A DNA stretch of 64,000 nucleotides, taken from Antedon mediterranea. Taxonomy: Eukaryota > Echinodermata > Crinoidea > Comatulida > Antedonidae. The stretch lies in NCBI RefSeq assembly GCF_964355755.1, contig NC_092679.1, positions 434,001 to 498,000 on the forward strand. Direction: 5' to 3'. Position 1 is the stretch's first letter; each line of letters starts with the position of its first letter. Of this stretch, positions 3,501-31,307 are shown piece after piece. The translations under genes were made by a program, and so were the position numbers. The notes under the pieces were generated by a model. The model searched no databases. It had not been told where the DNA came from and saw nothing but the letters and a program-made list of their open reading frames with translations.

Positions 3501-6372
3501 TTGAGTAATACAAAGTGTATATAAAGTAAAACAAAGAATATGAATTTAATTATCAAGAACAATAACCTGTAACTTGATAATAATCCATTAAATGTTTACA
3601 ACTAAATGCCAAGGTGTCATATTAGTTGTCAGTTGTTGTGGTGTTAAGTTAAAGGTAATTATCAACCTGCTGGTGGTGGTACGTGATGGAAGCAAAATCT
3701 GAGAAATGATTAATAAATAAGTCTTTAGGTTTACTGTCATTCTGACCATGGAGATTAAGTACTGTTACAGTATGTTATTTAGGTCCTTGAAAATTTGCAT
3801 TTTATCTTACGATAATTTGAAGAACAACCCATATCTGAAACAAGTGGATTCTACATAGCTTTTATGTGCTATTGATTACAGATGGACAGAGTGTAAGCTG
3901 TTTTGATGGCAGACAAAGCAATTCACCATTCACGTATTAATTGTAACTAATTACATCACAGTAGAATCCCAAATTAATTTGACACCTTCAATGAGTTACT
4001 CCTTTCATTAGGGAAAAGCCAAGAAACATGTTCCCTGAATAGGAGTGTGTCCCCTGAATAGGAGTGTGTCCCCTGAATAGGAGTGTGTTTCCTTAATAGA
4101 AGTGTGTCCCCTGAATAGAAGTGTGTCCCCTGCATAGGAGTGTGTCCCCTGAATAGGAGTAAGTCCCCTGAATAGGAGTGTGTCCCCTGAATAGGAGTGT
4201 GTCCCCTGAATAGGAGCGTGTCCCCTGAATAGGAGTGTGTTTCCTTAATAGGAGTGTGTCCCCTGAATAGGAGTGTGTTTCCTTAATAGGAGTGTGTCCC
4301 CTGAATAGGAGTGTGTCCCCTGAATAGGAGTGTGTCCCCTGAATAGGAGCGTGTATCTCTACTGTATGTTTAATTATAAAATCAAGCATTAGTATTTTGT
4401 GGTGCATTCCATGAGATGTAAATCAGCAAGATTATTAAACCTGATCTGAACAACCTACGCTAAATGACAAATATTCTTATTGTACCAGCAAAATAACTTT
4501 GGCATTTTTATGTATGATACAATAGCTGGTTGAGTATTAATTACACAAAAAATGTCCCACGCTTTCCACTTTTAAAAATTTTGTTATGAAAGCAAAGTTA
4601 ATTAAAATTGTAATTTAATTGTCTCTTTACCCTTTTCTTTTTCTAAGTTCTTCAAAACTCATCAGTCCACGAGCATTGACACTAATGATAAGATCATCAA
4701 GTTGAATCACATCAATACGAAAGGGTTGTTTAGTGATCACTACATCAATGTCATTTTCCATGGAAACTTTCACGGTCTGCTGATCCCGGTTTTTAATTGT
4801 CCAACTGTAAGAGTACAAAATGGTTTCATATTATATTGTCTTCGAACTTATTTTTCTGTAACTTTGTATAGCCAAGGCAATCTAACAACAAGATGATGAG
4901 CACCGGAGATCAAAGGGTGTATCTGTGGCTGCGACACTATCAGATCCACGACCCTTAACACTGTGTGCCGTGGACAATGTGTGCATACAGTAGTACAGTA
5001 CTGTTGTTATTTGTCGCAGCCAGACATAAGATCAAAGGACTGTCACGAGTTCCTAGCAAGTAGAGTTCAGCCTCCTGTTGTTAGATTGCCTTGGTATAGC
5101 TTACATAAACTATTTGTAATTATATAAAATAAAATATCACAATATTAACATTTTTATAAATGTTATGGTGACAATTACCTTTGCTTATGTGGATCTTTAA
5201 TTATAACATCTGGTACTTCATAACGTTGTTTCAGTGGATGTAGTTCATTGACCTTTAACCTTACAATGTTAGTCTCCAAACCATGCAGTTCAAGAGCAAG
5301 AATTACGCCACTTTGTGTATTCAATACATTAAGTTTAGCAACTCCACCGTACACCTGAAAAGTGTCTAGCTGGGCAACATACGGTGTCTGTCCTGGTACA
5401 ATTGCTCTTGTCCGCCTAGAAAATTCAAAAATTGCATAATTAAATTGTCTAAATAATAGACATAATTATGTAAATTGTTATTTTGCAATTATTGAAATTA
5501 GTGAAATATCAAATGTTTCAGTTTAAAAACAAAGGTCTTTTCTGTTATCAACTTCTCTGTTTAATCATTTTTATGCACATAAATTAAACTGGAATTTAAA
5601 AAAAAATTTGTGTACGATCTACACAACACATCTCATTTGATTTACTGAAAATCATAAAATACCAAGAAAACATAATAACCATTAAAAAATTAGTTTAATT
5701 ATTAATTACACAATCTTTGACTTACTTGCAAAATGCACTTTGATCACATTTTTTAAAGTTATTTCTGTCAACTGCATGAATAATTACAAACAAAGCAATC
5801 GCGGAGAAAATTAAATGATGCCACATCCTAAAACAAATTAAAATAAACATAAAATTAGAATACTAAATCATAAATGACATGATTATGTTATGAATATATG
5901 ATACTGTTTTAACTTTTATCCATTTTATTTATGCCAACCAAACCAACTACTACTAGCCTACTACTATACTGGGCCTGGCCCTAGGCTAGTACAACTAGGC
6001 CTAGAGCCTATAACTATATACCTAGTTCTAGGCATCTACAATTCGCCGTCAGGGGTAGATAGGCCTAGGCCTATTTAGCTTAGGCTACTACTAGGAGGCC
6101 TAGGCCTACTATCTACTCTCTAGCTAGGCCTAGGCTAGTAGGCAGACAGAGAGAGTAGGTAATAAGGTAGGCCTAAACTTTTTTATTACTTGCTTTTTGT
6201 GACAGAACGAAACGATCAATTCATTGAAATTAAATCAAAATAGCAGTATTTCATAATTTACATTACACTATTAAACTAGGCCTAGCATTCAAAAACAGTC
6301 AACGTATAAATGAGGAAAAACAAATTAGAATTACTTGGACCACGTCAACTTTTGTAACGAGGACGCATCCAT
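506..6372 (-). CDS. GANAB: Glucosidase II alpha subunit, N-terminal part (3' end off the window)
   Basis: Catalytic subunit of ER glucosidase II (GH31), which trims the two inner glucoses from N-glycans during glycoprotein folding quality control. Eleven coding exons read right to left: 6335-6372, 5726-5827, 5179-5415, 4631-4804, 2935-3078, 2668-2716, 2426-2534, 2031-2127, 1754-1855, 1478-1556, 506-679. They join in frame to 435 codons. A hydrophobic signal segment ([18 protein letters not shown]) is followed by [15 protein letters not shown], the conserved mature N-terminus. Later matches include [56 protein letters not shown] and [11 protein letters not shown], all family hallmarks. The GH31 catalytic aspartates lie in exons left of position 506. 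The ATG at 6370-6372 has a good context (A at -3, G at +4); a second in-frame Met opens exon 2 just before the signal segment. Exons 2426-3078 encode an acidic, poorly conserved spacer that varies in the family. Identification is firm; small exon edges are by eye. Confidence 0.93.
1180..1300 (+). mobile_element. Possible non-LTR retroelement 3' tail
   Basis: A short segment ending in TGGATCACCCTCATTAAATA followed by AAATAAAATAAATAAATA-type A-rich simple sequence. This resembles the 3' end of CR1/L2-like LINEs or their SINEs. No coding part is visible; low certainty. Confidence 0.3.
1589..1678. mobile_element. MITE family A, copy 2 (internal/right part)
   Basis: Contains AAGTGTGATGTGCCCAAAT, TAGTGATATGACATCACCAT and the right end CAGTTTGATAATGAAGACAG. 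The left terminal repeat is lost. It lies in a GANAB intron. Confidence 0.65.
4028..4350. repeat. 18-bp minisatellite in a GANAB intron
   Basis: About 18 head-to-tail copies of an 18-bp unit, CCCTGAATAGGAGTGTGT, with point variants such as TTCCTTAATAGGAGTGTG. Because 18 is a multiple of three, the array is open in several frames and yields a spurious repetitive minus-strand ORF. Confidence 0.95.
4873..5093. mobile_element. MITE family B, copy 1, with 7-bp target duplication
   Basis: A 221-bp element with terminal inverted repeats CAAGGCAATCTAACAACAAG on the left and TGTTGTTAGATTGCCTTG on the right. A second inner inverted pair is present (GTGGCTGCGACAC and TGTCGCAGCCAG). It is flanked by perfect direct repeats GTATAGC at 4866-4872 and 5094-5100. 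No coding capacity. A relative lies at 35176-35401. Confidence 0.88.
5935..6170. repeat. AGGCCTAG-rich palindromic simple sequence
   Basis: Dense overlapping occurrences of GGCCTAGG, CTAGGC and AGGCCTA in GANAB intron 1. A matching cluster at about 6650-6910 lies in the presumed first intron of the divergent gene. The words are self-complementary and AGGCCTA recurs elsewhere in the window, so this is probably a genome-wide word bias. Confidence 0.7.
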
Positions 6373-9056: not shown

Positions 9057-9756
9057 TATCGTGGTAAAATTGTAATATTTAGTATTAAAATACTGTAATT
9101 CAGGTTAGATGAATATCTTGGCAAAATCTGAACAAAGATCAAATATAAGTTCTTTCTGACTTATTTAAGTTTTTTCATCATTGTTTATTTTTTACGTTTT
9201 CAAAGCATACTTAATTTATCAATAGGTAATAAGCTAGGAATAGTCAGTTCGTAGGAACTTTATTTTATTATCTCTGGCCAATTTAACAAATATTAAATTA
9301 TATTTCAGGTTTGACATCATTTATTTAAAGTATTTTTAAAGTGTTTACCATGGAAGTATTTTTTTTTTACTATTTTTTAAAATTTCTTCGACACATTTTT
9401 CCTATAAATATTAACTGTTCTATTATAATGTAATTATGTATATTAGTTATCTTAATAAATATTAAAACGATTTTAGAAAAATAATAATAAATATATTGCC
9501 TGCCCATTATTAACAATATCAAAACACATTCCTTAAGACAATGGCCAAACGACCTTGTGCAATTATTTGATACAAGTAGTATAATTTACCTGTTCACAAA
9601 TTTACTGGTATCAATAAATTGGTTAAAAGATTGTATTACACATTGTAAGGAGTGATACTAATGTACTTACGACATTGTTCAATACAGAATTCTCGAAGCA
9701 ACAACTTGTGAAAAGTGTCTTCATTTTGTTGTTTAAATTGTTTGAATTAGTTTATA
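9057..9756 (+). other. 3' UTR of the PH gene and 5' flank of transporter 1
   Basis: AT-rich. A polyadenylation-type signal (TTAATAAATATT) lies near 9451. From about 9480 the sequence is homologous to about 16365-16622 (shared words AACAATATCAAAAC and CATTCCTTAAGACAAT), marking the left boundary of the segmental duplication. No coding region. Confidence 0.6.
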
Positions 9757-11499
9757 ATGGATGAAGATTCGAAACTAAAAACTAATAAGGATGGGGTGTT
9801 GCCTTCTGGGAATGTTCTTAGAACTGTTAGTACACGATCTGACGCCGTGCTGATGAAAGAAAAGAAAGATGATGACAACGACGATGACGCTAAATGCGTT
9901 TGTGATTCTTGCACTCCATCATGGTTACAATGTTTCAAAGGAGTAAAATTCTTTACTTTTGTAACACTTTTTGCTCTTCTTAGTAAAGTATTTGCGAGTA
10001 CTTATTTCGGTGCTGTGGTCTCTACGTTAGAGCGGCAGTTTAATATGGATAGTGTGAAATCCGGTGTGTTACTTGTTATCAACGACATGATGGACTTCAT
10101 TTTTGTGATCTTTATCACTCATTTCGGTCATAGTGGCCATCGGCCTAGATGGATTGCTACTGGATTGTTCATGGCAGCGATGGGATGCTTTCTCTGCATT
10201 GTTCCACACATCATGACTGAATATGTACCACCAGAAGGAAAGAATGCAGAACCATCTCTTTGTAGCAGCAATGCAGGGTTACCAACAAAGCAGAACATGA
10301 CGGCGATGTATGAAAATGAGATGCCTGCTGGCATCATGGAAGAAACAGAGGGGCTGCAATCAATGTGGAGTAATGTTTTTTGGCTGATGTTGGGTCAAAT
10401 CCTTATTGGAATTGGTAATACTCCTTTAAAACCTCTCGGCACCACGTACATTGACGATTCTGTTGAAGATCACAAGACTGGATTCTACGTTGGTTAGTAT
10501 AATGTTCCTAAACCTACAAAGTTGGTAATCAACCTCTCTTTTGTATCGCATGTGCGGCCTGTTAAATTTAAGGTTAGGTCAGGGAAAAGCGTAATTTCAA
10601 GTTGAAACATCAAACTACTGCATTGTATAACACCTACCAAAAGAAGGCTCTTAAAATGGAAAATTAGTAACACAGATACTTGCCTGCAATGCAACGTAGT
10701 AGAGGATGATGCCCATTTCTTTTACGAATGCACTGGAGTAAAACACTTATGGGACTATATTAACGTAGACACCGTACACAAATTTGGTATCGAAGCAAAT
10801 TATCGAAACATTATGCTAGGTACAAGAAACATATATGTCAACCACATGTTCTCTATTGGATGCTTTTGCGTTTACAAAGCACATATTTAAAAAATGTAAA
10901 CAAATGGACCGGATCACTGTCTCGTCTTTTTATGGCGGAAAAAATAATAGATCTTACCTTAACCGCCTGTTATAATTGATATTTATGTGAATTTGATTAA
11001 TTATTTAAAATATATATGTATGTATGTATGAGAATAGTTATGTACTACAGATATTTAATATACACATATGTTACATAATAGTGTGGTAGGCTAATACCCA
11101 TAGGCAGTTACATTTATTTTATATAAAGTACTTTAAAAAAATTATATAAATTAATATTCAAAACAAAAAAAGAAACGTAACGCACGAGAAGACAAACAAA
11201 CATGAGACATAAAACTAGACACAAGAGTAAGAAAAAAATATTTTTTACATAGTCTGTATATAGGGTAAAAAATGAATTTTATATCTAAAAAATACATACT
11301 GAAAATAATTAGGCCTACATAACATTAGTAAATGTATCTTCTGCAGTACATTTATTAGTTAAGTGTTTACAATTTTAGATGTTGAGAATTATAGAACAAA
11401 CAAAAATTTTAGAAAATTATGAAAAAAGGTGGATATAACAGGAACGAAATATTAATGTTTAGATTCTAAGAACAGTAACATTGATAAAATCACATAATG

Positions 11500-11591
<92 letters not shown>

Positions 11592-14500
11592 AAAACTGAG
11601 AGTAACAATGAAATAGTTATTATTATTAGTATTCAATAATTGTATTATCCTGTTGAAGATGAAATGAATAAATAGTGGTTAACGCCACAAAAGAAAAAAA
11701 AAGATTGAGTTAAGCGAAAACACATGCGATATGTTGTATTACCAAAATTTCTACGATACAGGAGAGATCTAGTTGCCAAACTGTGCCCCTCTCGACAAGG
11801 TGCATTGTTTCACTAGAGAGAATATATAAATTAATATTATTTTACGGCAATAAAAGAAAAGTAGGCTCATTCTTTCTTTTCGCTTTTTCTCTCAACAGCC
11901 ATGCTTTTCCTTGCAACTCCAATTGGTGCAATCATCGGTTACTTCACAAGTTTCATGTCTTTGCGAGTGTATGTAGACTTCGATAGAATTTCCATGGAGG
12001 AGTGGCCACAAATACCACGTTCTGACCCAAGATGGATAGGCGCATGGTGGTTCGGATTTGCAGTGGCTTCTGCTCTTTTAGCGGTCTCTGCTATTCCTTT
12101 CCTACTCTTCCCGAAAGAACCAATCGAATGCAGGAAAAAACGAACAAACAGTGAAGCACCAGCAATGGATATACGAGTTGTGAAACCAAAACGGAAGAAG
12201 AGCGTCATGGAATTGATAAAAGGTATCTTGTATGATCAAAATTATTTTCTGCATACTGCTCTCCTCCGCCAATAACCGATATAAGCCAAATTTACTGTAC
12301 AACAGTTGTTTTTTGCTGAGATTTGTCAAATCCTATAAAAACAAGTACAACCAGAGTAATTTCAATGAATGTTCGAAATATCCAACTGTTTCTACGAATG
12401 GTGTTAATTCGTTCTTGATAGGGTTGCTTCAAGCTCTCAAGCGAATGGCCACAAATCCTGCCATGGTATTCATTTGTCTATCGTCATCATCTGGCTCTGC
12501 TGCTTATGCTGTTTCTGGCGCTTTCGGAATAAAATATTTTGTTGATGAATTTGGCAAATCTAATTCCAGCGCATCTCTTGTTGGAAGTAAGTCATTGTTT
12601 CTTATTTTTTATTTTTATAATTTCAAAAAACTTCGTTTTAAAAGTAAATTCATCAGTGATACCATAAATTGACTTGCATATGTTGACAAAATCTTTTCCT
12701 CATGTTGTTGACCAAGATTGGTCCAAAAACGTATAATAGTTCTCAAAATGTTTGAAAATTTATACCAGTTTAAAAATAAGATATTTTTTCCTTAATTACG
12801 CAGTAGCGATCCTCCCAGTATTAATATTGGCATATCTTATTGGTGGTTACGTCATCAAACGTTGGAAGTTGAACGCCAAGCAGTGCGCCTTGTTTGGGTT
12901 TTTCGTGGATGCTCCAAGTTGTCTTATGTACTTTTTGTTATTGTTTGTGGGATGTCCAAATAGTGACGTGGCTGGTGTTACTGTTCCGTATACTGGAGGA
13001 CTACCTGGGTAAGTAATAATCTGATAAAGCAGCTATTTAGTTCATCACACTCTTCTGTGCGAACACAACGCATGACGTACGCGCAACGCAAGTGATTTGA
13101 CCCAATCAGCACGCAAGTGGGAAACCTATCTTTGTATGGCGCCTCGCATTTGTAATGGGATATAGAACTCAAAACTAAATGATTTATCCTCACAAAAGTA
13201 TAACCATTATATTGTTGTACTTTAAAAAAATAGAAATGTTAGCCTTATTGCGGAATGTAACAACCAATGCGGGTGTCCCGAAATTTACAATTACGAACCA
13301 CTTTGTATCAACAACGTAACGTTCATGTCACCGTGTCACGCAGGATGCACAGTCATGGAAAAACAACAGAATAGTCAAAAGGTAGACTCGACGTAATCAA
13401 TAACCTATTATTGATTGATTTATTGATTGATTGCTTATTAAATGAATTGTAGTTTAATAATTAATAACTGAATTGATTTTGATGATAAATAATCGATCGG
13501 TTGGATCCGAATGTTACCAAAGCATTCCTTTATACGCCTTGATTGAATGTTTATGGCCATTAGGAAATGCTCTAGATCGATGAACTTGAAATACATTTTC
13601 TGAAATAAAAAATCAAATTAAAATTGATCCATTAATCAGTTGACTAGCATTGTATCATTTTTTTTTAGATGTATTCAAATTGTACATGTGATCCAGATGC
13701 CCTCGTGCAGAATGGCGCATGCCCAGTTGATGATGTATGTAACACTAATTTCATGCTTGCAGTGTTATTGATAATAATAGCTCTGGGTACGAGTAGCCTG
13801 GGCAGAAGTGCTGATATTATCGTTTCTTTACGGTACGTGTACGCACAACTTAGTTCAATTATTAATTATTACTTGTTGATATTGATATGGTTTTGTATTA
13901 GTTAAATGAAGTACTTTCCATCTTTTTAGATGTGTTGATAAGGAAGACAGATCGCTGGCTCTTGGAATCAAGATATTCATTGTCAACATTTTAGGTATAC
14001 ATGTTTAAAGTCAATCTTGTGTAGCATCTTCTTCTTCTTAACCTATTTCTTTCCCCTGCAGGACGAAGGCCTCTTCACCAATTGACCATTCACTTCTGTC
14101 TCTAGCTACTTTTTGCCATGCAAAGACATGACATGTGTAGCATAAATAGTTCTAAAGGAACCTACGTATTTATTTACTCTTTTATTCCTGATAAATAAAG
14201 TTTAAATAATTGTCTGAATACCACACTTATCTTTTCACAGCATTTTTCCCGTCACCGGTGTACTTTGGTGCTTTGCTTAACTGGACATGCTTAGAGTTTG
14301 CATACAAACCAACCGGAGAGCGTGGTGCATGTTTGGTGTACGATAGGACCAGATACCGTCATGTCTTTTACGGCATGTATACCGTTCTTCACTTGTGTGC
14401 TTTATTCTGTTGGCTTATGGTTTATTTTACCGTGGAGGAGAAAAACAAGGGGGTAAGAAAATATAATTGCCAATAATAGAACATTTTTTAACGGCAGAAG

Positions 14501-14861
14501 CGAAAGCGTGTGATATTTTAGTGAGGAATAAAGCGAGTTGACCAATCGGAAGCAGTTCCGTTGATCCATCGTGATTGGTCAAATTACTTTGCGTTGCGTC
14601 CTAGTGAGAAGCAAACGGTCATATGCTTGCGCGATAAAATTGGTCACGCGAGTTGTTGATGTGACGTCATCGAGCGCATCAGTAAAACCACAGTGAAATT
14701 ACTAATTTCACTTTTTCTGGTAGAACAATTCGTTAAAATTAAATTATAATCAACTTTTAGTCGTTAAAAAAAAATGATAATGTTTTTATAACCGGATTAT
14801 TTTTCAGATGGACACACCAAACGAGGCTAATGATGGCCAGGAAATGAATGATTTTGAATGA
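9757..14861 (+). CDS. Organic anion transporting polypeptide (OATP/SLCO family), copy 1
   Basis: Sodium-independent organic anion transporter of the plasma membrane, MFS fold. Nine exons: 9757-10492, 11899-12222, 12434-12586, 12804-13008, 13234-13381, 13669-13832, 13930-13994, 14241-14452, 14808-14861. They join in frame to 686 residues, a normal length. Twelve hydrophobic segments are recognisable. The OATP signature is present as DPRWIGAWWFGF before TM6. The large outer loop between TM9 and TM10 (exons 5-6) is Kazal-like, with ten cysteines (NNQCGCPEIYNYEPLC, PCHAGC, NCTCDPD). An acidic N-terminus (DDDNDDD) and an MNDFE C-terminus are cytosolic. The start ATG at 9757 is the first in frame. 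A polyadenylation signal (GAATAAAATG) lies near 14951. Substrate cannot be inferred; subfamily is uncertain. Confidence 0.93.
10579..11700 (+). mobile_element. LINE 3' fragment inserted in intron 1 of transporter 1
   Basis: Unit 2 lacks this stretch: its intron 1 is 318 bp against 1406 bp here, and homology resumes at AAGATTGAGTTAAGCG. Near 10640-10900 one frame encodes KRRLLKWKISNTD, CLQCNVVEDDAHFFYEC and GVKHLWDYINVD. These have the C-x2-C...H-x4-C layout found at the C-terminal end of non-LTR reverse transcriptases. Only this end survives, so it is a 5'-truncated relic. It also contains the TA microsatellite. Confidence 0.75.
11503..11588. repeat. (TA)n microsatellite
   Basis: About 43 uninterrupted TA dinucleotides inside the insertion in intron 1 of transporter 1. 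Such tracts are length-unstable, and the assembled length may be approximate. Confidence 0.97.
14005..14135 (+). mobile_element. Short retroelement-like segment in intron 7 of transporter 1
   Basis: Contains CCCCTGCAGGACGAAGGCCT and CTTCACCAATTGACCATTCA, resembling the conserved 3' part of some RTE-type LINEs and SINEs. The same segment sits at 20640-20765 in transporter 2, so it predates the duplication or was copied by conversion. Confidence 0.4.
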
Positions 14862-15540
14862 TTTACTGAAAGAGAAAACTTCGTTTTATAATGTAATAAT
14901 TAAACAGTTAAAATATTTAGTGTATTGTATTTGTTTTCTGCAGAAAAAACGAATAAAATGATTTTATTTTCTTTTTTTTATTAACTTTTTGGTCAATATA
15001 GTAAATATTATGTGACATTTAACTGGCATACTCAAAGTGGTTTAATCATATTAATTATGCTTGTTAGATTGATGTAAACAACTGTCACATTATGGTTTTT
15101 GTTGGGTGAATGAATGAAATGTATATACATAATAATATAATAATAATATTTATTCGGCAAAAGTTCATAAAGTACATTTTACAATTCATCTTGCCAGGAG
15201 CAAGTAATAGGCATGAGCCCAAACAGAAAACTGCTCTTACTTCATCAACATACATAGTATAGGCCTAGGAGTTGACTGTATTAGGCATACTTTAAACAAT
15301 AAATGCATATGAAATTAAAGAAATAAAAGAACAACAATATTCACTCCTATACTAAATTTCTCTCTCTCTTTTCACCATCAACTTATGTTTTGATTTACAA
15401 TCAGACGTGACGTAACAGACGACAGGAGAACAACATGTTAACAATTTCACCTGTTAAAAAAGATAATAATTTTGAATCTAGATAGAAATGTCTTAGAAAT
15501 GATAATAAAAGAACCTTAAATAAAGAATACGCAATACAAA
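14862..15540 (+). other. 3' flank of transporter 1, no gene
   Basis: AT-rich sequence homologous to about 21207-21960 of unit 2, including the words CAGACGTGACGTAACAGA and TTTCACCTGTTAAAAAAGAT. In unit 2 this stretch is the upstream region of the carboxypeptidase gene. Here it leads into the dead stub. Confidence 0.6.
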
Positions 15541-16011
15541 ATCGCTGCAGCTATAATAGTTACACTTCGTATTATTTGGTGATAGTCACAGGTTGGACAG
15601 CTAAGGTCCAATATGACAAGTAAGTAAGGGGTTTTCACGTCATAATACGTAAGCATAAACACGTTAAAGGCAAAAGAAAAATTATATATAGAGTAAAAAT
15701 AAATTTAAATACCAGTGGAAAGTTAAACCTTTGTTCCATGGAATAAGTTATTATTTATTCCTAGTGACGACCATGCTAATATAGTTCCTACCAGTGTTTG
15801 TGAGTTGAGTACGGTCTTAACTGTCGAAATGGAAAACTGTGTATAGACTTCCGAATCAGGAAAAGGGGAGATTTCTTCCACACACAAAAAACTATTTAGA
15901 CTGTGAAAAAACTAGTAACGCCTAATATCAGGCTTTGAAGTTTTCAGGTTTTAAGCATTTTCCCAACCGATGGGAATCAAGATCCTGAACGAGTCCTCGA
16001 TGGTGAGGTAA
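15541..16011 (+). pseudogene. Carboxypeptidase pseudogene stub (relics of exons 1 and 2)
   Basis: Matches the first two exons and first intron of the intact carboxypeptidase at 21992-22421. The exon 1 relic still shows TTTGGTGATAGTCACAGG and TAAGGTCCAATATGACAAG with its GTAAGT donor at about 15630. The block with the start codon is deleted, and one base is lost in the signal-peptide codons (GGTTGGACAG against GGTTTGGCCG). The exon 2 relic near 15940-16010 keeps GGTTTTAAGCATTTTCCCAA and CCTCGATGGTGAGGTAAGG but is frame-disrupted. All downstream exons are absent because the duplication ends inside the gene. It cannot make a carboxypeptidase. Confidence 0.85.
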
Positions 16012-16180
16012 GGTTTAATCAATCAATTAACAGAACTCCATGGTATAATAAAGCAGTATAAACCATATAAATGAAAATAAATAAAACAGCTACCTTATGT
16101 AATTTACGAACATATGTTATCAAAACGGTGTCAGTAACTAATTAGTAGGATTATTCAGTTACTGTCCGTATGTTGTCATT

Positions 16181-16622
16181 TAAAGATAACGTATATCATG
16201 CCAGTCTTTTTATTCTTTTTTCGTTGCTATTTTTAATAATTTTTATTTGTTTCTTCAATTTATTTTTGCTCTAAATATTACTGTACTTTTATAATGTAAG
16301 ATTGGTTATTTATTAGTTTATTATATATTTTAAAATATTTCAAACAATAATAATTATACAAAAGATAATTTATTGTCAGCCCATATTAACAATATCAAAA
16401 CGCATTCCTTAAGACAATAGCCTTAGTAACGATCAAAAGCGGTATCATTTACATGTTCTACCAATTTACTGGTATCAATGAATTGGTTAATTAAAAAGGT
16501 TTTATTAAACATTGTAAGGAGTGATACTAATGTACTTACAACATTGTTCAATACAGAATTCTCGAAGTAACAAATTGTGAAAAGTGTCTTCATTTTGTTT
16601 AGATTGTTTGAATTAGTTTATA
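16181..16622 (+). other. Duplication junction and 5' flank of transporter 2
   Basis: Between about 16180 and 16365 lies AT-rich sequence with no clear match in either unit, presumably containing the duplication junction. From about 16365 homology to 9480-9756 resumes up to the ancestral ATG at 16623. No gene. Confidence 0.55.
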
Positions 16623-19600
16623 ATGGATGAAGATTCGAAATTAAAAACTAATAAGGATGGGGTCTTGTCTTCTGGGAATGTTTTTAACTGGTGTTTGAAA
16701 ATCATAGTAAAAACATCTTAATACATCTTCCCCCCTTTCCCCACATGGGAGTGTCTTACCGGACTTCCTGCTGACCATTCATGCGAACCATATTGATTTT
16801 ACCATTAATACTATTATTATGTACATATTTTATTTCAAATTATTTATGTACATGAACGTTGTCTGGTATTTTTGTAGGCCTACTGTATATATAAACGGTA
16901 TCCAAACTTACAAACACTTATTATTGTGTTACTATTGAACATTGTAATTGTGAGCGATCTGACGCCGTGATGATGAAAGAAAATAAAGACAACAGCGACG
17001 ATGACGCTAAATGTGTTTGTGATTCTTGCACTCCATCATGGTTACAATGTTTCAAAGGAGTAAAATTCTTTACTTTTGTAACACTTTTTGCTCTCATTAG
17101 TAAAGTATTTGCGAGTATCTTTTTCGGTGCTGTGATCTCTACATTAGAGCGGCAGTTTAATATGGATAGTGTGAAATCCGGTGTGTTACTTGTTATCAAC
17201 GACATGATGGACTTCATTTTTGTGATCTTTGTCACTCATTTCGGTCATATGGGCCATCGGCCTAGATGGATTGCTACTGGATTGTTCATGGCAGCGATTG
17301 GATGCTTTCTCTGCATTGTTCCACACATTATGAATGAATATGTACCACCAGGAAGAAAGAATGCAGAGCCATCTCTTTGTAGCAGCAATGCAGGGTTACC
17401 AACAAAGCAGAACATGACGGAGATGTATGAAAATGCGATGCCTGATGACATCATGGATAAAACAGAGGGGCTGCAATCAATGTGGAGTAATGTTTTTTGG
17501 CTGATGTTGGGTCAAATCCTTATTGGAATTGGTAATACTCCTTTAAAACCTCTCGGCACTACGTACATTGACGATTCTGTTGAAGATCATAAGACTGGAT
17601 TCCATGTTGGTTAGTATAATGTTCTTAAACCTACAACAAGTTAGTAATACAACCTATCTTTTGTATCGCGTGTGTGGCCTGTTAAATATAAGGTTAGGTT
17701 AAGATTGAGCTAGGCGATACTGTGAAACACATGCGATGTGTTGTATTACCAACATTTCTATAATACTGGAGAGATCTAGTTGTCAAATGTTGCGCCTCTC
17801 GACAAAGAAATAGCAAATAATATTATGTATTACCAAAAATATTCCGGCAATTAAAGAAGAGTAGACTAATTCTTTCTTTTCATCTTTTAAAATGTCTTTC
17901 GTACATATTCGCTTTCTCCCTAAACAGCCATGCTTTTCCTTGCAACTCCAATTGGTGCAACCATTGGTTACTTCACAAGTTTTATATCTTTGCGAGTGTA
18001 TGTAGACTTCGATAGAGTTCCTATAAAGGATTGGCCAAGAATACCACGTTCTGATCAAAGATGGATAGGCGCATGGTGGTTCGGATTTGCAGTGGCTGCT
18101 GCTCTTTTAGCGGTCTCTGCTATTCCTTTCCTACTCTTCCCGAAAGAACCAATCGAATGCAGGAAAAAACGAACAAACAGTGAAGCACCAGAAGTGGATA
18201 TACGAGTTGTGAAACCAAAACCTAAGAAGAATGTAAAAGAATTGATAAAAGGTATCTTGTATGATCAAAATTATTTTTCTGCATCCCTCTCTCTTCACGT
18301 AACCGATATAAACCAAATTTACTTTCCAGCAGTTGTGTTTTGTTGAGATTTGTCAAATCCTATAAAAACAAGTACAACCAGAATAATTTCAATGGTTATG
18401 GTTGTTTTTTCTAAATTTGTATAGCGCAAAATACAAGTAGTCTGTATGCGCTGTTTAACACAAGTTTAAAAAGAAAGCGTTATTGTTAAATAAACCAGGA
18501 AAAAGCCTAATAAACTGAACAAATTAACCCAAGACAACAGAAAAAAAAGTCAGAAAACGGAGCCTCCCATCACCATACTGTTCCGCTAACTTGTCAAGAC
18601 AAGCCAGCTATTTATTCACAAGTGTCATAATGATGTGATCATCGGACTCTCCTGCCTAACAAACAATGAAATTGATATATAATAAGTTCACACAGAACGA
18701 AACAAATGAGTCGTCAAGTGAGCTTTGAAGATCGAAACGGACGGAGACTCACGAATGACTAAAGGCAACAAAGAGTTTGACCATTTTGGAGCAGCGATGA
18801 CAAAAGATATCTCCCCACATGACTTGAATGTTAGAAATATCAAACTGTATCAACGAATGGTGTTAATTTGTTCTTGTTATTAATATGTTTGCTTCAAGCT
18901 CTCAAGCGAATGGCCACAAATCCTGCCATGGTATTCATTTGTCTATCGGCCTCATCTTCTACTGCTGCCTATGCTGTTTCTGGCGCTTTCGGAATAAAAT
19001 ATTTTGTTGATGAATTTGGCAAATCTAATTCCAGCGCATCTCTTGTTGGAAGTAAGTCATTGTTTCTTATTTTTCATTTTTATAATTAAATAAATGTCAT
19101 TTTAAAAGTAAAATTTTCAGTGTTAACAAAATCTCTTCCTCGTCTTACTGACTAAGATTGGTCCAAAAACGTATAATATTGGACAAAATGTTTGAAAATG
19201 TACAACAGTTTGGAAATAAGATATTATTTTTAAATTACACAGTAGCGATCCTCCCAGTATTAATATTGGCATATCTTATTGGTGGTTACGTCATCAAGCG
19301 TTGGAAGTTGAACGCCAAGCAGTGCGCCTTGTTTGGGTTTTTCGTGGATGCTCCAAGTTGTCTTGTGTACTTTTTGTTATTGTTTGTGGGATGTCCAAAC
19401 AGTGACTTGGCTGGTGTTACTGTTCCGTATACTGGAGGACTACCCGAGTAAGTACGCTAAATCAAAATAGTCTCACACTTCTGAGCGCACTGATTTAAGC
19501 TGGTCTCACAGCGCAGGACATAAGCGTGATTTGACCAATTACGACGCAAAGTGGGAAGCAAGCTTAAATAAAGCCTATTTTTCACAAGGCGAATTTGTTT

Positions 19601-21206
19601 GCGCGAATCGAAAACGTCAGCTTACACGCATGCGTAAAGAGGCATTTGGAAGATGGAAAAAACGTACTGTACAAATACGCCTAGTGAAAAATCGGTTTGC
19701 AATTGATTTTTCTTTCCATTAGGCGAACCGAAAGCGTCAGCATGCGTATTCATGTTTCCATCTTGCAAATTCTTCTCTACGCATGTGTATAGCTGACAAA
19801 TTTGCCTACTGGAAAATCGGCTTTAGATTGTGATGATGTGGATGTCGCCAGCGGCTCACATCTGTAATGAGATAAAAAAAAGTATTAAATCATTAAGTTC
19901 TTTTACTTTGTTTAAATAGAAATGTTAGCCTTATTGCGGAATGTAACAACCAATGTGGGTGTCCAGAAATTTACAAATACGAACCACTTTGTATCAACAA
20001 CGTAACGTTCATGTCACCGTGTCACGCAGGATGCACAGTCATGGAACGACAGAATAGACAAAAGGTAGACTCGACGTAATCAATAATCTGTTATTGATTG
20101 ATTTATTGATTGATTGCTTGTTAAATAACTTGTGGTTATAATAAATAACTTATTTATTACGATGATAAATAATCGATCGGTTGCATTTGGATTGTACTAT
20201 TGTATTATTACATACGCCTTAAATGAACTTATTTGATTTTATTTTAGATGTACTCAAATTGTACATGTGATCCAGATGCCTTCGCTCAGAATGGTGCATG
20301 TCCAGTTAATGATTTATGTAACACTAATTTCATGCTTGCAGTGTTATTGATGATAATAGCTCTGGGTACGAGTAGCCTTGGCAGAAGTGCTGATATTATC
20401 GTTACTTTACGGTACGTAGGCATAATCAAGTAACTTCGGCACAATTTAGTCTGTTATTGAATATAAATCGTTTATATTATTATTAGTGTGACTTGGTATG
20501 GTTTCATTTTGTAACATAATGTACTTTCCATCTTTTTAGATGTGTTGATAAGGAAGACAGATCGCTGGCTCTTGGAATCAAGATATTCATCGTCAACATT
20601 TTAGGTATACATGTTTAAAGTCAATCTTGTGTAGCATCTTCTTCTTCTTAACCTATTTCTTTCCACTGCAGGACGAAGGCCTCTTCACCAATTGACCATT
20701 CACTTCTGTCTCTAGCTACTTTTTGCCATGCAAAGACATGACATGTGTAGCATAAATGGTTCTAAAGGAACCTACGTATTTATTTACTCTTTTATTCCTG
20801 ATAAATAAAGTTTAAATAATTGTCTGAATACCACACTTATCTTTTCACAGCATTTTTCCCGTCACCGGTGTACTTTGGTGCTTTGCTTAACTGGACATGC
20901 TTAGAGTTTGCATACAAACCAACCGGAGAGCGTGGTGCATGTTTGGTGTACGATAGGACCAGATACCGTCATGTCTTTTACGGCATGTATACCGTTCTTC
21001 ACTTGTGTGCTTTATTCTGTTGGCTTATGGTTTATTTTACCGTGGAGGAGAAAAACAAGGGGGTAAGAAAATATAATTGCCAATAAATTGAATTATAATC
21101 AATTAATGGTTTAGTCGAATGATAACGTTTTTATAACCGGATTATTTTTCAGATGGACACACCAAACGAGGCTAATGATGACCAGGAAATGAATGATTTT
21201 GAATGA
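16623..21206 (+). CDS. Organic anion transporting polypeptide (OATP/SLCO family), copy 2
   Basis: Paralogue of the gene at 9757-14861. Exon 1 is split: the ancestral first 19 codons are at 16623-16679, then 275 bp of inserted DNA, then the frame continues at 16955-17609. The other exons are 17928-18251, 18899-19051, 19243-19447, 19920-20064, 20248-20411, 20540-20604, 20851-21062, 21153-21206, with the same lengths as copy 1 except one codon fewer in the Kazal-like loop. Twelve TM segments, the signature RWIGAWWFGF (preceded by DQ instead of DP) and all loop cysteines are kept. If translation starts at the ATG pair at 16970 the product is 653 residues, missing only the disordered cytosolic N-terminus. 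If the insertion is spliced from GT at 16680 to AG at 16954, the frame is also restored. No stop or frameshift was found elsewhere. Polyadenylation signal near 21294. Confidence 0.88.
16680..16954 (+). other. 275-bp insertion in exon 1 of transporter 2 (candidate new intron or promoter)
   Basis: Absent from unit 1, where GGGAATGTTCTTAGAACTG runs straight to CGATCTGACGCC. The inserted stretch begins GTTTTTAACTGG and ends TTGTGAG, so it has GT...AG borders, and removing it joins AAT to CGA in frame. It also contains TATATATAAA at about 16885-16894, some 75 bp before the ATG pair at 16970. Whether it acts as an intron, as a promoter with a new 5' UTR, or as neither cannot be decided from sequence. 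Confidence 0.6.
18393..18825. mobile_element. About 430-bp insertion in intron 2 of transporter 2
   Basis: Present only in unit 2; flanking intron sequence (AATTTCAATG and GAAATATC...AACGAATGGTGTTA) is continuous in unit 1. Contains TGTATAGCGCAAAATAC and ATGCGCTGTTTAACA, resembling widespread SINE-like 'TATAGCGC' repeats. No coding capacity and no clear terminal repeats. Confidence 0.5.
20640..20765 (+). mobile_element. Short retroelement-like segment in intron 7 of transporter 2
   Basis: Nearly identical to 14005-14135 (for example CAGGACGAAGGCCTCTTCAC). It belongs to the near-identical tract shared by the two transporters. Confidence 0.4.
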
Positions 21207-21514
21207 TTTACTGAAAGAGAAAAAAATTACAATTATAATATAATGAACAAGTTTATGTGTAATGTATTCGTATTTATTCATTTCAAAGAAAAAGAATAAA
21301 ATGATTTAGATTGTTTTGATTAACTTTTTGGTCAAAGTAGGAACTATTATGTAATTTTTTCACTGTCATACTCAAAGTGGTTAAATCATATTGTTATTAC
21401 TATTAGCTTGTGGTATTGATTTGGGCCTAAACAACTTCTTTCCCTAACACTTGTTTAAGTTTATGTTGGGCGAATTATTGAAATTGCGTATACACAGTAT
21501 TATAGGCTTATTAG

Positions 21515-21652
21515 TTGACTGTATACAGTCTATCAAACTAGTTTCAGAAGAAAAAGTGGCAGTGATATGCCCAATTATGGTAGTATGACATCATCATGTC
21601 CATATATGGGCACATCACATTTTAAAAGTTTGATAGTGTAGACAGAGCTTTA
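21515..21652. mobile_element. MITE family A, copy 3
   Basis: Left part ACTGTATACAGTCTATCAAAC is diverged. The core (TGATATGCCCAATTATGGTA, TGACATCATCATGTCCATAT) and the right end GTTTGATAGTGTAGACAGAG are well kept. It lies between transporter 2 and the carboxypeptidase and is absent from the equivalent place in unit 1, so it inserted after the duplication or was deleted there. Confidence 0.75.
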
Positions 21653-21991
21653 AGCCTACTTATAAGTTTAAATAATAAATGTATTACTGTATAATGAAAT
21701 AAAGAAATAAAACGGCAACAATACTCACTCTTAATTATTTGAACAGATGTGAAATTTCAGAATGATAAGTTTCTTATCACTATCAACTTATGTTTGCTCA
21801 TGATACGCAGCAAAACTTACCATCTGACGTGACGTAACAGAATACATGACGACAAGAACAACATAGGGATAACAAAGTTGTTTCACCTGTTAAAAAAGAT
21901 AATAATATTGAACCTAGATAAAAATTTCTTTAAAAGAAATGATAGACAAAAGAACCTAATTCGCTGCAGCTTGCGACACTGAAAGGACATC

Positions 21992-24900
21992 ATGAAATCC
22001 GTCTTCATATTGTGTTTGGTGATAGCCACAGGTTTGGCCGCTAAGGTCCACTATGACAAGTAAGTTCTAGGGGGGATTTCACGTCCTAATACACAAGTCT
22101 AAAAACGTAGGAAAATTTATAAAGTATAAAATGTTAAATTAAATTCTAGTGGAGAGTTTTAAAAACTGTTTGCCTTTACTTTACTCCATATTTTTTCCAA
22201 TATGTTGTTCCTAGTAAGGCAAGATCATGTTAATTATGTCCTACCAGTGTTTGTTGAATTCGGTCTTGAATGTTGAATGGTAAGCTGTGATATGCATTTA
22301 CGTAGAGCGCGGCAACAAAACTAGCGACGCTAATATCTGATTTTGAAGTTTCCAGGTTTTAAGAATCTTTCCAACCGAAGAACGATGGAAGCAAGATCTT
22401 GAAAGAGTACTCGGTGGTGAGGTAAATTGTAATCAATAAATATTAGTTGTTTCCTTTATTTAAAACCTTAAAAAAGAAAATTCCAAAAGAATTAAAAATA
22501 CAACAACAACTACCTTATGTCAGCTACGATACTCAACAGATGTTAAAATTTGTTATCAAAACGGTATCAGTGACGTTAAGTAATTCAAACGGTTCAACTA
22601 ATTAGTAATATTATTCAGATAATACGTAACTATCCGTATGTTGTAAATTAGAACATGCTATCTGTATAGATTAGGTAATTGTTTCTGATATTTTACATTT
22701 TTTTAAAGTAAGGCGTCGAAATGTTTTCTTTCTTTAATTTATACTCAAAACTCATAACGCGTCATAATAGTTCCGCATGCGTCAATATTGTGCGTCTTGT
22801 AAACTCTGACACGCGCGGATTAATCACGCGCGCCCAGTTATTCAATAAACTGTATTGACACATTATTTTGTATCTTTGGCGCGTTTTTTACATTTTATCT
22901 AGTTTGATATATGGCGTGAAACAAAAGAACGCATCGACATCATGGTTGGACCAAAAGTTGTCAAAAAACTGACCGACATGCTGAAACGTAGAAACATTGA
23001 TTATGACGTCATGGTAGAAGATATTCAATCTCTAATTGATCAAGAGCGCCCCTCTGCTAAAATTAACATTGGTGGTGGAGGATCCGATTTTGATTACAAC
23101 GTCTACCACACATACGGTGAGGTAATATAGATTTTCAATATATTTGTACATACGAGGAAATATAACTTTAAAAAAAGAAAAAGTTTAAGATATTTTGTTT
23201 TAATTGGGCTTTGGTCTATGTTTACTATACAGATAATGACATGGGTAACCGACTTTGCCTCGGCTAATAAGGGACTTGTTACTGAAGTCGAAGTCGGTGA
23301 ATCCACCGAGGGACGTATTATCAAGGCTTTAAGGGTATGTATAATATCAACATAAGAGGAACAATTGCGAAAAAGACGTTCAACAATGCAACATATTCAA
23401 TTGACAGACGAGCGGTAACGGTAATACAAATAGAGAGAATCTATGTTATCCTTATGACCATTTTACACACACACAACACAGCGGATAGATACAGATTCTA
23501 CGTGGGACAAGCTACGCGGTTTTCCGCTTACCGCCGTTACCGCGCTCGTCTGGCCTTTATTCATTGCGATTGTTTTTATTACAGATTGGATCACAATCGT
23601 CAAACAATCCTGGAATTTACTTCCAAGGTGGTATTCATGCCAGAGAATGGATTTCACCGGCTACTATGATCAACTTGGCCAGAAAGGTAGTATAGACATT
23701 TTATTATATTTATATTCTACATTTTGTACGACATGGCTTAATAAAAATATATATAGACAGCATGTCGGCAGACAACGAAACATTGCGCATCCACCACAAA
23801 GATGACGATAAACTTCTATTCGTCTGCTTCTGTCAAACATTCAATTAATTAGAGCCTCAAAGGACAATTATATCCCTATAATTCAAACAGTTAATTCCAA
23901 TCAAATAATATTTGATCTTTATTATTGTCTTAACGTTTCAGCTTGTAGAAGAGTATGGATCTGACGACACTGCCACGAAAATACTTGATGCGTACGACCT
24001 GTACATTATACCAACAATGAATGTGGATGGCTATGTGTACACCCATACCAATGTACGAATTATCATAAAATGACACGTTTACCATTATAAACCATGTGAT
24101 GTAAAGCATAAACGTAATAAACCCGTTCTTTTATTTAACACAAGGACGGTAATATATACTTGCCCCAAGTCTGTAGTTTTTTTATGTTTTTCTGACCCAA
24201 AAGTATCAAGCTCAATTATTATACATACTAACGCCATATGTGCCAAAATATTTATCATTTTATTAATATTAAGTCAAAACTCCGTCTGAAACCGAGACTA
24301 GGACGGTAAGCGCAAAGTAAGTCATTTGACCAATCAAAAGCGACGTAATGTAAACTGTCGCTTGTCATTGCTCACTCGATTGCGTTGCATTGCGCCCTCT
24401 AGTGGGGGAACCAAGCATTAGTGGTACGCACGGTACTATATCCAAACTTGGTACATGGTACTCAATTCAGCTTATTGTGATGATAACTTGCCATATTTTT
24501 TTTTAACCGTTCAATTTGTGTTTACATTCAAATGTTTTAAATGTCAATAATCATCATTATTTGTTTATTAGGATCGGATGTGGAGAAAAAATCGCAAAAA
24601 CTACGGTACTGCATGTACTGGTGTTGATATGAACAGAAACTACCCAACTGGATTTGGTGGTAAAGGCCCATTTACGCTACTGTAGGACCTTAACGATCGA
24701 CGATAAATTAACATACCTTTTCCTACATAAAACAAGAACATCTAAAAAGTTAGAACTACACGATCTATGCTGCTTTTGTATAATAATATTTTCACACGTC
24801 ATAACGCACGTTAAAATGACATCATGAATAGTAAAAGCAATAATATCGCGACGATACAACGATTTTATTGTTATTGATCATGACGTCATTTACCAAGGAC

Positions 24901-26893
24901 TGTATAAATCCTTTAGTTTTAGTAAGACAAATTTTCTAATTTCGTTTGTTTTATGTAAAAATATATGTTTTTCTATTTATTGTCGACCGTTATCGTCCTA
25001 GTGTGTTGCAGCCATAATTCAAATTATCGTTTGTAAATTAGATTATGAAGCATGTAATGCAATGCTATTCATCAGCTTTTTCACACTTAACTCCCTTTCA
25101 CATCAAACTCTGAAGTGATCCCCTGAGGAGCCCCAGGGAAACTCCGGAGTCGGAGGCCATTCACATCAACGAGAATCACCGGGCAGCTTATAACATTTTT
25201 TTGGTTGTACTACTATTTGCAGGTAAAGGAGCGAGTAGTAACCCCTGTTCTGAAACCTACCACGGACCTAAAAATATATCTGAAGTTGAGATGGAAGCTG
25301 TAACCACATTCTTCCTTGACCTGGTGGCCGATGGACAAGACTTCCATCTATTCATTGACTTCCACGCTTATGGGCAGTTATGGCTCTTCCCTTGGGGATA
25401 CAGTCGCACAGCACCGATTGTTAACGATTACAATGATTTGGTATGCAGTTTTTATCAATTTAATTGAGATCTAATTAGCTAACGGTTATGCATATGGTAT
25501 GCGGTCACATGGTGATCAGATTGCCAATGATGCAACGATGATGGTACAGAAATATGATGACGATGATAATGATAATGATAGGAAAATGATATTATTACTA
25601 AATGACGATAATATATTAGGATAACTTGTATAATTGTATAACTATACTGTGGATTAGCTAGCTTTGCGTCATCAATAAGCTAGTCCTAATTGGTCAGATG
25701 TTTGCCCTCTCTGACGTAATTCATGTACTATAATGATTATATGATGACGAATGGAAGAAAGAAGGGCAAGAGATAAAAAGACGTATGATCGATTACATAA
25801 GGGGGGAAAGAAGGGCAAGAGATAAAAAGACGTATGATGATTACATAATGAGAGAAAGAAGGGCAGGAAATAAAAGGACGTATGATTACATTGATACGCA
25901 TGATGACAATGATAATGACGAGTAATTAGGAGTAATAATTAAATGTGACCGTTATCACCGTTCATGTTATAGAGTAATGGTGCTAATGCGGCTGCAGCGG
26001 CTCTCAAATCAGTGCATGGAACCGAATACTTTGTGGGCAATTCAGCAAGAGATATGTGTAAGTCAAACCTAATTCATATTGCATAATTGTTACAGTACCT
26101 AGATACTTACTGTAATGTAACCTTAAAATAGACATGACGTAATGTGTGACAAGCCAATCAAACAACTTGAATTGAATATGTAATTCTTTATTGACTATCA
26201 CCGTACGTTGCAGTATTGTCATAGAAAACAAATAACAAATAACAAATAACAAATAGCACAGAACGAAAAATAAACTAAAAATGTATATACAAATAACACA
26301 TGAATAATACCAATGTGGTTGTGTGAAATTTCCTCTGGTTATCCAAATAACATATAATACCAATGTGGTTGTGTGAAATTTCCTCTGGTTATGCAAATAA
26401 CACATGAATAATACCAATGTGGGTGTGTGAAATTTCCTCTGGTTATCCAAATAACATATGAATAATACCAATGTGGTTGTGTGAAATTTCCTCTGGTTAT
26501 GCAAATAACACATGAATAATACCAATGTGGTTGTGTGAAATTTCCTCTGGTTATGCAAATAACACATGAATAATACCAATGTGGTTGTGTGAAATTTCCT
26601 CTGGTTATCCAAATAACATATGAATAATACCAATGTGGGTGTGTGAAATTTCCTCTGGCTATGCAAATTAATAATCATTTTTTATAGATCCTGCTGGTGG
26701 CGCTAGTGAGGACTGGGGGTATGACAAACTTAAAGCGAAATATTCTTACATCATCGAACTAAGAGACGAGGGACGGCATGGGTTCCTCCTACCAGAAAAA
26801 TTTATTGAACCTACAGGAGACGAAACGTATGCTGGAATGAAGAATCTGTTCCAAACATTACTTGATGACCCTAACCCTATTCAAAAGAGTTGA
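21992..26893 (+). CDS. Secreted metallocarboxypeptidase (M14A), carboxypeptidase B-like
   Basis: Zinc exopeptidase zymogen removing C-terminal residues. Ten exons: 21992-22059, 22349-22421, 22903-23121, 23233-23334, 23585-23686, 23942-24052, 24572-24659, 25223-25440, 25973-26057, 26688-26893. They join to 423 residues, the usual M14A length. Signal peptide MKSVFILCLVIATGLAA, then a propeptide (NFQVLRIFPTEERW, MVEDIQSLIDQE), then the catalytic domain. In bovine CPA numbering: His69/Glu72 in GGIHAREW, Arg127 in MWRKNR, Asn144-Arg145 in MNRNY, His196 in FHAYGQ, Tyr248 in MYPAGG, Glu270 in IELRDEG. Cys138/Cys161 are present (TACTG, NPCSE). The motif Y-P-A-G-G-A-S-E-D-W puts Glu at position 255, where CPB has Asp and CPA has Ile, so cleavage after Lys/Arg is predicted. 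Exon 2 must use the acceptor TTTTTGAAG at 22348; the nearby CCAG acceptor gives a stop. Polyadenylation signals near 27067 and 27107. Confidence 0.94.
24150..24305. mobile_element. MITE family C, copy 1 (intron 6 of the carboxypeptidase)
   Basis: Starts CTTGCCCCAAGTCTGTAGT, contains ACGCCATATGTGCCAAAATA and ends AACTCCGTCTGAAACCGAGA. It aligns with 29885-30012. The ends are an imperfect inverted repeat (CAAGTCTGT / TCCGTCTGA region). Non-coding. Confidence 0.55.
24660..25222 (+). other. Intron 7 of the carboxypeptidase, no other feature
   Basis: AT-rich, 563 bp. Around 25100-25190 there is a GC-richer patch (CTGAGGAGCCCCAGGGAAAC, CTCCGGAGTCGGAGG) of unknown origin, possibly an old repeat. 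No coding potential. Confidence 0.45.
25740..25885. repeat. Tandem repeat, about 45 bp x 3, in carboxypeptidase intron 8
   Basis: Three imperfect copies of GAAAGAAGGGCAAGAGATAA followed by AAAGACGTATGATGATTACA. Unit lengths vary slightly. Confidence 0.8.
26280..26672. repeat. Minisatellite of about 61 bp x 6 in carboxypeptidase intron 9
   Basis: Six units of the form ACATGAATAATACCAATGTG + GTTGTGTGAAATTTCCTCTG + GTTATGCAAATAAC, with variants TATCC/TATGC and GTGGTT/GTGGGT. The array stops about 20 bp before the last exon. It creates a long spurious minus-strand ORF. Confidence 0.95.
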
Positions 26894-27879
26894 AAGCAGA
26901 AATGAATAAATATCGAGAGATGCACTTTAGTACGTAAAGGTTAATTAAGAATATTAATAGCATAATAGATTAACTGTTAGGCCTACAAAACAAAAATTAA
27001 TACAAATTGTATATAAATTCTCAAGGTGAGCTTTTGAAGATAAAAACGGTCTTTTTAGGACGACAAAATAAAGTATTAGAATGTAACTTGAATCATAATG
27101 GAAATTAATAAAAGTATCGGATTAACGTGAAATGTGGTTTATTTTTCTGTTACGGTTATTGATATGTAAAGGGTACGGTATCTAATATGAATAACACAAA
27201 GTGTCAATATGTGATAATAGAATATCGAAAGACGATAAAGCATATTGTTGGCATATAATTACGGTTACGGTGGTGATCAAAAGGATGTTTCATTAACAGA
27301 AGAATTCTATTAAATACACAATTGCCACTGATAATAGGCGTATTCATACAGAGAGTTTAATGATTCGCGTTATCTTATCTCTGTCATCATTCTCATCTAT
27401 TTCACTTGATAACTAAAGGAAAAACTAAACTTAACTCCCAAACGTAAGTATTGTTACATTTGTTTTATGGCGTTCTCTTCCTGTTTTGTAATGTTTTACC
27501 TGTTGTATTGTTACATATTTTCATATATTTGTAAACGAGCAATGAATTTTCGAAAGGATTAATAAAGATAATTTGAATTTGAATTTCTTATTTTCGAAAG
27601 GATTAATAAAAGATATTAAATTTGAATTTGAATTTCTTCTTGTAAAGTTTATAATTAACTAACTAAAGAGGGCGCCAGAGCACCTATAGACACGTTTACT
27701 TCCGGGTTCCAAAATCGGTCGGCCGATGATCGATGAATGAGTCACCAGATATTTGGATATTTTCACGGGCCGACGAAGAAATTGAAGCGGTAAATACTGC
27801 CAATTATTTAGGGCAAAAAATAGCTGTCTCGATACAGCTAACATCTTATTATAATTGGGAGTTATTCTAGACTTCAATA
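26894..27879 (+). other. Intergenic: carboxypeptidase 3' UTR and EHD 5' region
   Basis: Polyadenylation signals AATAAAGTATT (27067) and AATAAAAGTATCGG (27107) should end the carboxypeptidase transcript. From 27555 to 27640 there are two direct copies of CGAAAGGATTAATAAA with TTTGAATTTGAATTTC, probably a small retroelement tail. The last 200 bp are GC-richer (CGGGCCGACGAAG, TCGGTCGGCCGATGATCGAT) and probably hold the EHD promoter and 5' UTR. No TATA box stands out. Confidence 0.55.
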
Positions 27880-30800: not shown

Positions 30801-31307
30801 CTGAAACCGAAGTTGATCGAGAAGCTTGATCACATGTTGTCGCACGAGATGACGAAATTGATGGCGATGATCCCACAAGAAGAGTATGATCTGGGAACCA
30901 AAGATTCTAGTCGCCAAGAAATCAAAGGGGGCGTATTTCTCGGTGTTGTTGATGGTCCGTTTAAGAAAGGTGGAGGCGAAGGGGCAGATTTTGGATCTAG
31001 TGAGCTGGTCGATTGGGTCGTGGAAGAGATGAAAGATAAGAACAGGCATGTCTTTGAAAGTTTGAATCCTATAGAAGGTAAAGTTTCCGGTGCGACAGCA
31101 AAGAAAGAAATGGTGAAATCTAAGCTACCCAATACGGTACTCGGTAGAGTCTGGAAACTTTCAGATGTTGATCGGGATGGACAGCTTGATGAAGATGAAT
31201 TTGCATTGGCAATGTATCTGATCCAGTTGAAATTAGAAGGTACAGATCTACCAATAAATCTACCTACGCATCTCGTTCCACCAGCAAAAAGATCATTCGC
31301 AACTTGA
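27880..31307 (+). CDS. EHD1: EH-domain-containing ATPase (EHD1/3-like, RME-1/Past1 orthologue)
   Basis: Dynamin-related ATPase that tubulates endosomal recycling membranes. Two exons only, 27880-28794 and 30597-31307, joining phase-0 to 541 residues (vertebrate EHD1 is 534). N-terminal MFSWLAEDTKRRKQP; P-loop GQYSTGKT at residues 65-72; DTPG at 153-156; NKSD at 219-222; helical region with SPGDFPPLERMKKVL. The C-terminal EH domain has PNTVLGRVWKLSDVDRDGQL and DEDEFALAMYLIQLKL, including a calcium-binding DxDxDGxLDxxEF loop. All nucleotide-binding motifs are intact. EHD proteins bind NPF-motif partners through the EH domain. Invertebrates usually have one EHD gene, so the number in the symbol is only a nearest label. 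The ATG at 27880 matches the family start exactly. Confidence 0.96.
29140..29235. mobile_element. MITE family C-like fragment
   Basis: Begins GACTTGCCCCAAGTCTGTAC like the copy at 24150 and ends with TTTCTGTCTGAAAATACTGA. The interior differs. Probably a truncated or divergent family member. Confidence 0.4.
29885..30012. mobile_element. MITE family C, copy 2 (EHD intron)
   Basis: Left end TTTCCCCAGACAGAGTATCC, middle ACGCCATATGTGCCAAAATA, right end ACTCTGTCTGGAACTCAGAC. The ends are imperfect inverted repeats (CCCCAGACAGAGT / ACTCTGTCTGGAA). The middle word is shared with 24150-24305. Confidence 0.6.

Follow-up and report, generated by a model that had tools for sequence, protein, structure and literature searches.

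A 64-kb stretch of Antedon mediterranea contig NC_092679.1 (34% G+C), the whole of which is the window analysed here, carries two genes of the OATP/SLCO transporter family, OATP1 and OATP2, with the clipped 5' end of a carboxypeptidase gene lying between them and a complete carboxypeptidase gene following the second. Comparison of the two halves of this locus indicates that it very probably arose through one tandem duplication with a clipped neighbour, that the two transporters diverged afterwards and that a tract within them was probably converted later.

Self-BLAST of the window reveals a head-to-tail repeat made up of 8 collinear blocks on the same strand, 4 of these with E = 0.0, which run from a first pair at 9364-9820 / 16230-16686 to a last pair at 15291-16027 / 21667-22441. 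The initial annotation had described two adjacent units that align exon by exon and these blocks bear it out, although its unit starts of 9480 and 16365 lie some 115-155 bp too late. The outer ends of the repeat vary with scoring, and local alignment under five schemes placed the starts from 9059/15997 to 9364/16230 and the ends from 16027/22441 to 16275/22750. The adopted limits (Table 1) are based on shuffle tests: homology between 16040-16200 and 22450-22660 is supported (score reached by 0/200 shuffles), and no significant homology was found to the left of 9364 (16/200) or, to the right of the units, between 16201-16622 and 22661-23000 (22/200). The repeat is ~6.8 kb long (9364 to ~16200), and both limits of unit 2 (~16210 and ~22660) are uncertain by some tens of bp.

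Both OATP models run from ATG to stop without an internal stop, with introns bounded by AG/GT, and the claim that the transporter had been copied whole is upheld by their open length of 686 amino acids. They match the OATP profile PF03137 at positions 2-544 of 545 and contain the signature D-x-RW-[IV]-GAWW, as DPRWIGAWWFGF and DQRWIGAWWFGF; this signature and a cysteine-rich Kazal-like extracellular loop are motifs of OATP/SLCO transporters. The extracellular-loop cysteines of OATP1 align with OATP1B1, and the Pfam scan lists no match to the Kazal profile for the OATP proteins. Taken together, these features place both genes in the OATP/SLCO family, with organic-anion transport as the predicted function. 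The two proteins agree in 625/688 alignment columns and differ or are gapped in the other 63. Outside a near-identical tract discussed below, the ratio of nonsynonymous to synonymous divergence (dN/dS) is 0.5, with 35 synonymous and 66 nonsynonymous differences in 592 codons. A search for OATP relatives in bacterial and archaeal genomes gave 25 pattern matches, 0 of which were confirmed, and the literature returned no paper that by its title concerns the duplication of echinoderm or sea urchin OATP genes.

The gene downstream of OATP2 is predicted to encode a pro-carboxypeptidase of the M14A type, combining Peptidase_M14 and Propep_M14 domains with predicted active-site residues. Its closest PDB match is procarboxypeptidase A2 (1aye, E=1.7e-91), with which HAREW, ELRD and the His of FHAYG align at the same residues, presumably the zinc ligands and the catalytic Glu. 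The first acceptor tried for exon 2 gave a stop; the one 7 bases upstream leaves an open frame that aligns with 1aye. In the same alignment, within 26688-26893, a Glu stands ahead of Asp-Trp in place of the Ile of procarboxypeptidase A2. This site would be position 255, a specificity site, so that the enzyme may lack A-type preference.

All 10 carboxypeptidase exons were compared with the window by blastn and tblastx, and exons 1 and 2 alone are found a second time within it; besides the exons themselves and these two relics, the best match reaches E=0.011. Between 15291 and 16622 neither program found a match to exons 3-10 at E up to 1. That each unit comprises an OATP gene and the 5' end of a carboxypeptidase gene is accordingly supported by the gene models and the exon search, as are the confinement of the unit 1 relics to exons 1-2, with a breakpoint inside the gene, and the completeness of the unit 2 gene, the 10 exons of which run beyond the end of the unit. 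The relics had also been described as deprived of their start codon and frameshifted. The first part holds, as the start codon of exon 1 falls within a 13-bp gap that is followed by a 2-bp gap, but the second does so only in part, because downstream of those gaps both relic exons read in the original frame and are free of stops. There is no in-frame ATG ahead of the relic exons back to the nearest upstream stop, and they amount to ~40 open codons, from which we draw no inference on selection. The stub cannot make the enzyme, because its start codon and exons 3-10 are missing.

Table 1. Features of the duplicated locus (positions in the window)
Feature	Position	Strand	Basis and remarks
Unit 1 (5' flank, OATP1, spacer, carboxypeptidase stub)	9364..16200	+	Self-BLAST, boundary alignments, shuffles; right end +/- some tens of bp
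OATP1, 9 exons, 686 amino acids, open	9757..14861	+	Gene model; Pfam OATP E=6.7e-136; PDB OATP1B1 E=2.8e-87
1120-bp stretch, OATP1 intron 1 only	10581..11700	+	Alignment gap; non-long-terminal-repeat retrotransposon-like piece and AT microsatellite
Near-identical tract of OATP1, from the end of intron 6 through exons 7-8 (with intron 7) into the start of intron 8	13911..14474	+	3 differences/564
261-bp stretch, OATP1 intron 8 only	14475..14735	+	Alignment
Relic of carboxypeptidase exon 1	15565..15619	+	84% over 57 columns, E=4.8e-11; no start codon; GTAAGT donor retained
Relic of carboxypeptidase exon 2	15941..16007	+	E=7.4e-12; 6-bp in-frame gap, no stop, AG and GT kept
Unit 2 (5' flank, OATP2, spacer, carboxypeptidase exons 1-2 and part of intron 2)	16210..22660	+	Self-BLAST, boundary alignments, shuffles
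OATP2, 10 exons in model, 686 amino acids, open	16623..21206	+	Gene model; Pfam OATP E=5.6e-135
254-bp stretch, OATP2 exon 1 only	16687..16940	+	Alignment; splits the OATP2 equivalent of OATP1 exon 1
432-bp stretch, OATP2 intron 2 only	18394..18825	+	Alignment
Partner tract in OATP2	20521..21084	+	Alignment with 13911..14474
Dispersed-repeat copy between OATP2 and carboxypeptidase	21519..21652	+	Self-BLAST; no unit 1 counterpart among BLAST matches
Complete pro-carboxypeptidase (M14A type), 10 exons, 423 amino acids	21992..26893	+	Model; Peptidase_M14 8.2e-94; Propep_M14 4.5e-13

Given this anatomy, the simplest history would be one tandem duplication that copied a segment reaching from upstream of an OATP gene to intron 2 of the carboxypeptidase gene downstream, so that the order OATP-carboxypeptidase would have become OATP1-carboxypeptidase stub-OATP2-carboxypeptidase. 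The right-hand unit would have kept the native 3' flank and therefore a whole carboxypeptidase, and the left fragment, without exons 3-10, would have gone on to lose the start codon that is now absent. Both transporters, still open, would then have diverged while the units gained several long differing stretches, one of them with a retrotransposon-like piece, and a later interlocus conversion would have overwritten ~564 bp across OATP exons 7-8, where near-identity is observed. The ancestral order that the initial annotation proposed is supported by the present layout. Its claim that the locus fixes the direction of duplication is sound for the order and the breakpoints but not for the identity of the daughter OATP: the layout names neither copy, because each unit still borders on one native flank, unit 1 on the left and unit 2 on the right. 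The same final anatomy would also follow from a larger duplication of the whole OATP-carboxypeptidase pair and subsequent loss of exons 3-10 and the spacer from the first copy, and the junction is too diverged to reveal a second scar or to argue against one. We nevertheless hold that history to be improbable, as it needs two events, with a deletion that ended near the 5' boundary of unit 2, and the exon search found nothing of exons 3-10 between the copies.

The divergence of the two units fits one event in its broad outline. Affine alignment under four gap settings gave a divergence (K) of 0.15-0.16 for OATP introns 1-6 and of 0.16-0.21, varying with gap costs, for the non-coding part of the stub, and at one gap setting the differing sites are in like proportion (157/1125 in introns 1-6 and 96/653 in the stub, p=0.67); non-coding identity in these parts is ~82-86%. 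An earlier alignment (MAFFT, low gap costs) had made the stub look much older, with a non-coding K of ~0.4-0.6. Affine alignment removed this difference, and the apparent clash between the age of the stub and that of the OATPs was dropped; both alignments show the near-identical tract.

Several points nonetheless weigh against the single duplication. Compared with introns 1-6, divergence outside the tract is lower at fourfold (10/232, p=1e-5) and synonymous sites (35/384, dS 0.097, p=0.013) and higher in the spacer between OATP and carboxypeptidase (81/388, p=0.002); part of this unevenness could stem from minor conversions that escaped notice, from codon constraint or from alignment error. 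The junction breakpoints and any microhomology at them cannot be read to the base, and the choice of one event is one of parsimony, made from this window alone. As for the proposed use of the stub as a neutral sequence for dating, it holds no advantage over the introns: since its K agrees with that of introns 1-6, it is on these alignments a rough clock and no better than they are, and its relic exons are compared with constrained exons of a functional carboxypeptidase. A date taken from the tract part of the OATP pair would mislead, because this part is near-identical through likely conversion.

The tract differs at 3/564 positions, none of them among the 212 of exon 8, compared with 157/1125 (14%) in introns 1-6 (p=2e-25). 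Its longest identical run, counted across an indel, is 331 columns against a maximum of 139 in 5000 shuffles, and in the earlier MAFFT alignment the run was likewise reached by 0/2000 shuffles. It ends at the 261-bp stretch found only in unit 1. Near-identity that is bounded in this way and extends over coding and non-coding sites of otherwise diverged paralogues is what a conversion tract would leave, and the tract is best read as the product of recent interlocus gene conversion. Strong constraint is a very unlikely substitute. In its favour, the end of the transporter domain, which exons 7-8 encode, aligns well with OATP1B1; against this, 246 of the 564 bases belong to intron 7, where 2 differences compare with the 157/1125 of introns 1-6 (p=3e-12), and synonymous sites are nearly unchanged (1 difference in 58.7 sites). 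Local assembly collapse may also account for the tract. The longest identical run elsewhere, of 105 columns (12505-12609), was reached by 17/5000 shuffles but lies mostly in exon 3, and a second conversion tract is therefore not claimed. Large indels are frequent between haplotypes of outbred animals, and the 3 differences in the tract could lie within the allelic range, but an assembly artefact in which two haplotypes of one locus were placed end to end is extremely unlikely, given a non-coding identity of just ~82-86% elsewhere and the contrast between a broken stub in one copy and a whole gene in the other.

The layout also suggests a speculation to which we give very little credence, namely that the copied carboxypeptidase promoter and the two relic exons could supply OATP2 with an alternative 5' end. 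Splicing from the donor after relic exon 2 (16007) to the OATP2 acceptor that precedes 16955 and adjoins the OATP2-specific 254-bp stretch would join exons of the same phase and leave the reading frame open. Sequence ahead of the relic has diverged less than relic intron 1 (25/245 vs 46/251 differing, p=0.01), yet not less than OATP introns 1-6 (p=0.12). If the idea were true, transcription of OATP2 would depend on a carboxypeptidase promoter, perhaps one active in the gut, and translation would begin from a Met within OATP2, the relic frame being without a start codon of its own.

Among the stretches present in one unit only, the 1120-bp stretch in OATP1 intron 1 has a match to the Pfam domain zf-RVT (E=5.3e-6) at 27.4 bits, just below the cut-off of 27.5. 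In OATP2, a GT-AG intron at 16707-16954 would keep the frame, with 8 residues (FNWCLKII) replacing 6 (LRTVST) of OATP1, and on this gene model an intron gain in OATP2, or a loss in OATP1, is possible.

Tandem clusters are known in the SLCO/OATP family, as in the human SLCO1 cluster, where OATP genes lie adjacent on the same strand; the present pair is alike in this respect and differs in having a clipped carboxypeptidase between the two. Partial duplication with a breakpoint in intron 2 is itself a textbook case, and the carboxypeptidase stub has the properties of a partial gene duplicate, as part of the coding sequence (2/10 exons) was copied and the breakpoint lies in the gene.

In the portions of Katju's review drawn on here, the schematic of partial duplication has a breakpoint in intron 2 with exons 1-2 kept, partial duplicates account for 21% of 290 young Caenorhabditis elegans pairs, 53% of Drosophila pseudoobscura pairs and, in mutation-accumulation lines of C. 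elegans, 63% of the duplication events that could be detected, and gene conversion between paralogues is called ubiquitous (Katju, 2012; PMC3449122). Because the review draws the same case and, in those portions, finds partial duplicates frequent in worms and flies, the locus is an ordinary new example of partial tandem duplication; its breakpoint is of the type in that schematic, and in the present case the partial copy came along with a full copy of the gene next to it. The linked duplicated sets of yeast, in the part of that study used here, similarly include complete and partial members, although organism and genes differ, and Ks within one such set can vary strongly through codon bias or gene conversion (PMC2728529). 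The general picture is unchanged, and the main use of the locus is as a worked example, in which a duplication can be read with both ends placed within tens of bases and the near-identical tract shows how a date based on a single part of such a pair may be misleading. It also offers two transporter paralogues in different surroundings, OATP1 with its native upstream region and OATP2 behind a copied carboxypeptidase 5' region.

Elsewhere in the window, an EHD-family gene (27871-31304, plus strand) with EHD_N, Dynamin_N, DUF5600 and EH domains lies downstream of the carboxypeptidase. Parts of a dynein heavy chain gene with many exons, the extent of which was inferred from the list of open reading frames, occupy ~42000-63000 on the minus strand, and three pieces scanned gave Dynein_AAA_lid, MT stalk and AAA_6. 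Rfam (gathering thresholds) and ARAGORN gave no match over the window. Self-BLAST detected a partly palindromic short-repeat family on both strands (229-349, 21519-21652, 37907-38066, 39582-39712, 43998-44161, 45642-45807, 48451-48592 and 58931-59070), with shorter pieces elsewhere in the window, which is likely a miniature inverted-repeat transposable element. It also detected minisatellite-like tandem arrays at 4029-4357, 26286-26668, 35402-35660, 41978-42474 and 62185-62474, the third of which repeats without mismatch. The octamer TAGGCCTA, which is abundant in echinoderm DNA, occurs 19 times in the window and 0-2 times in each of five mononucleotide shuffles.

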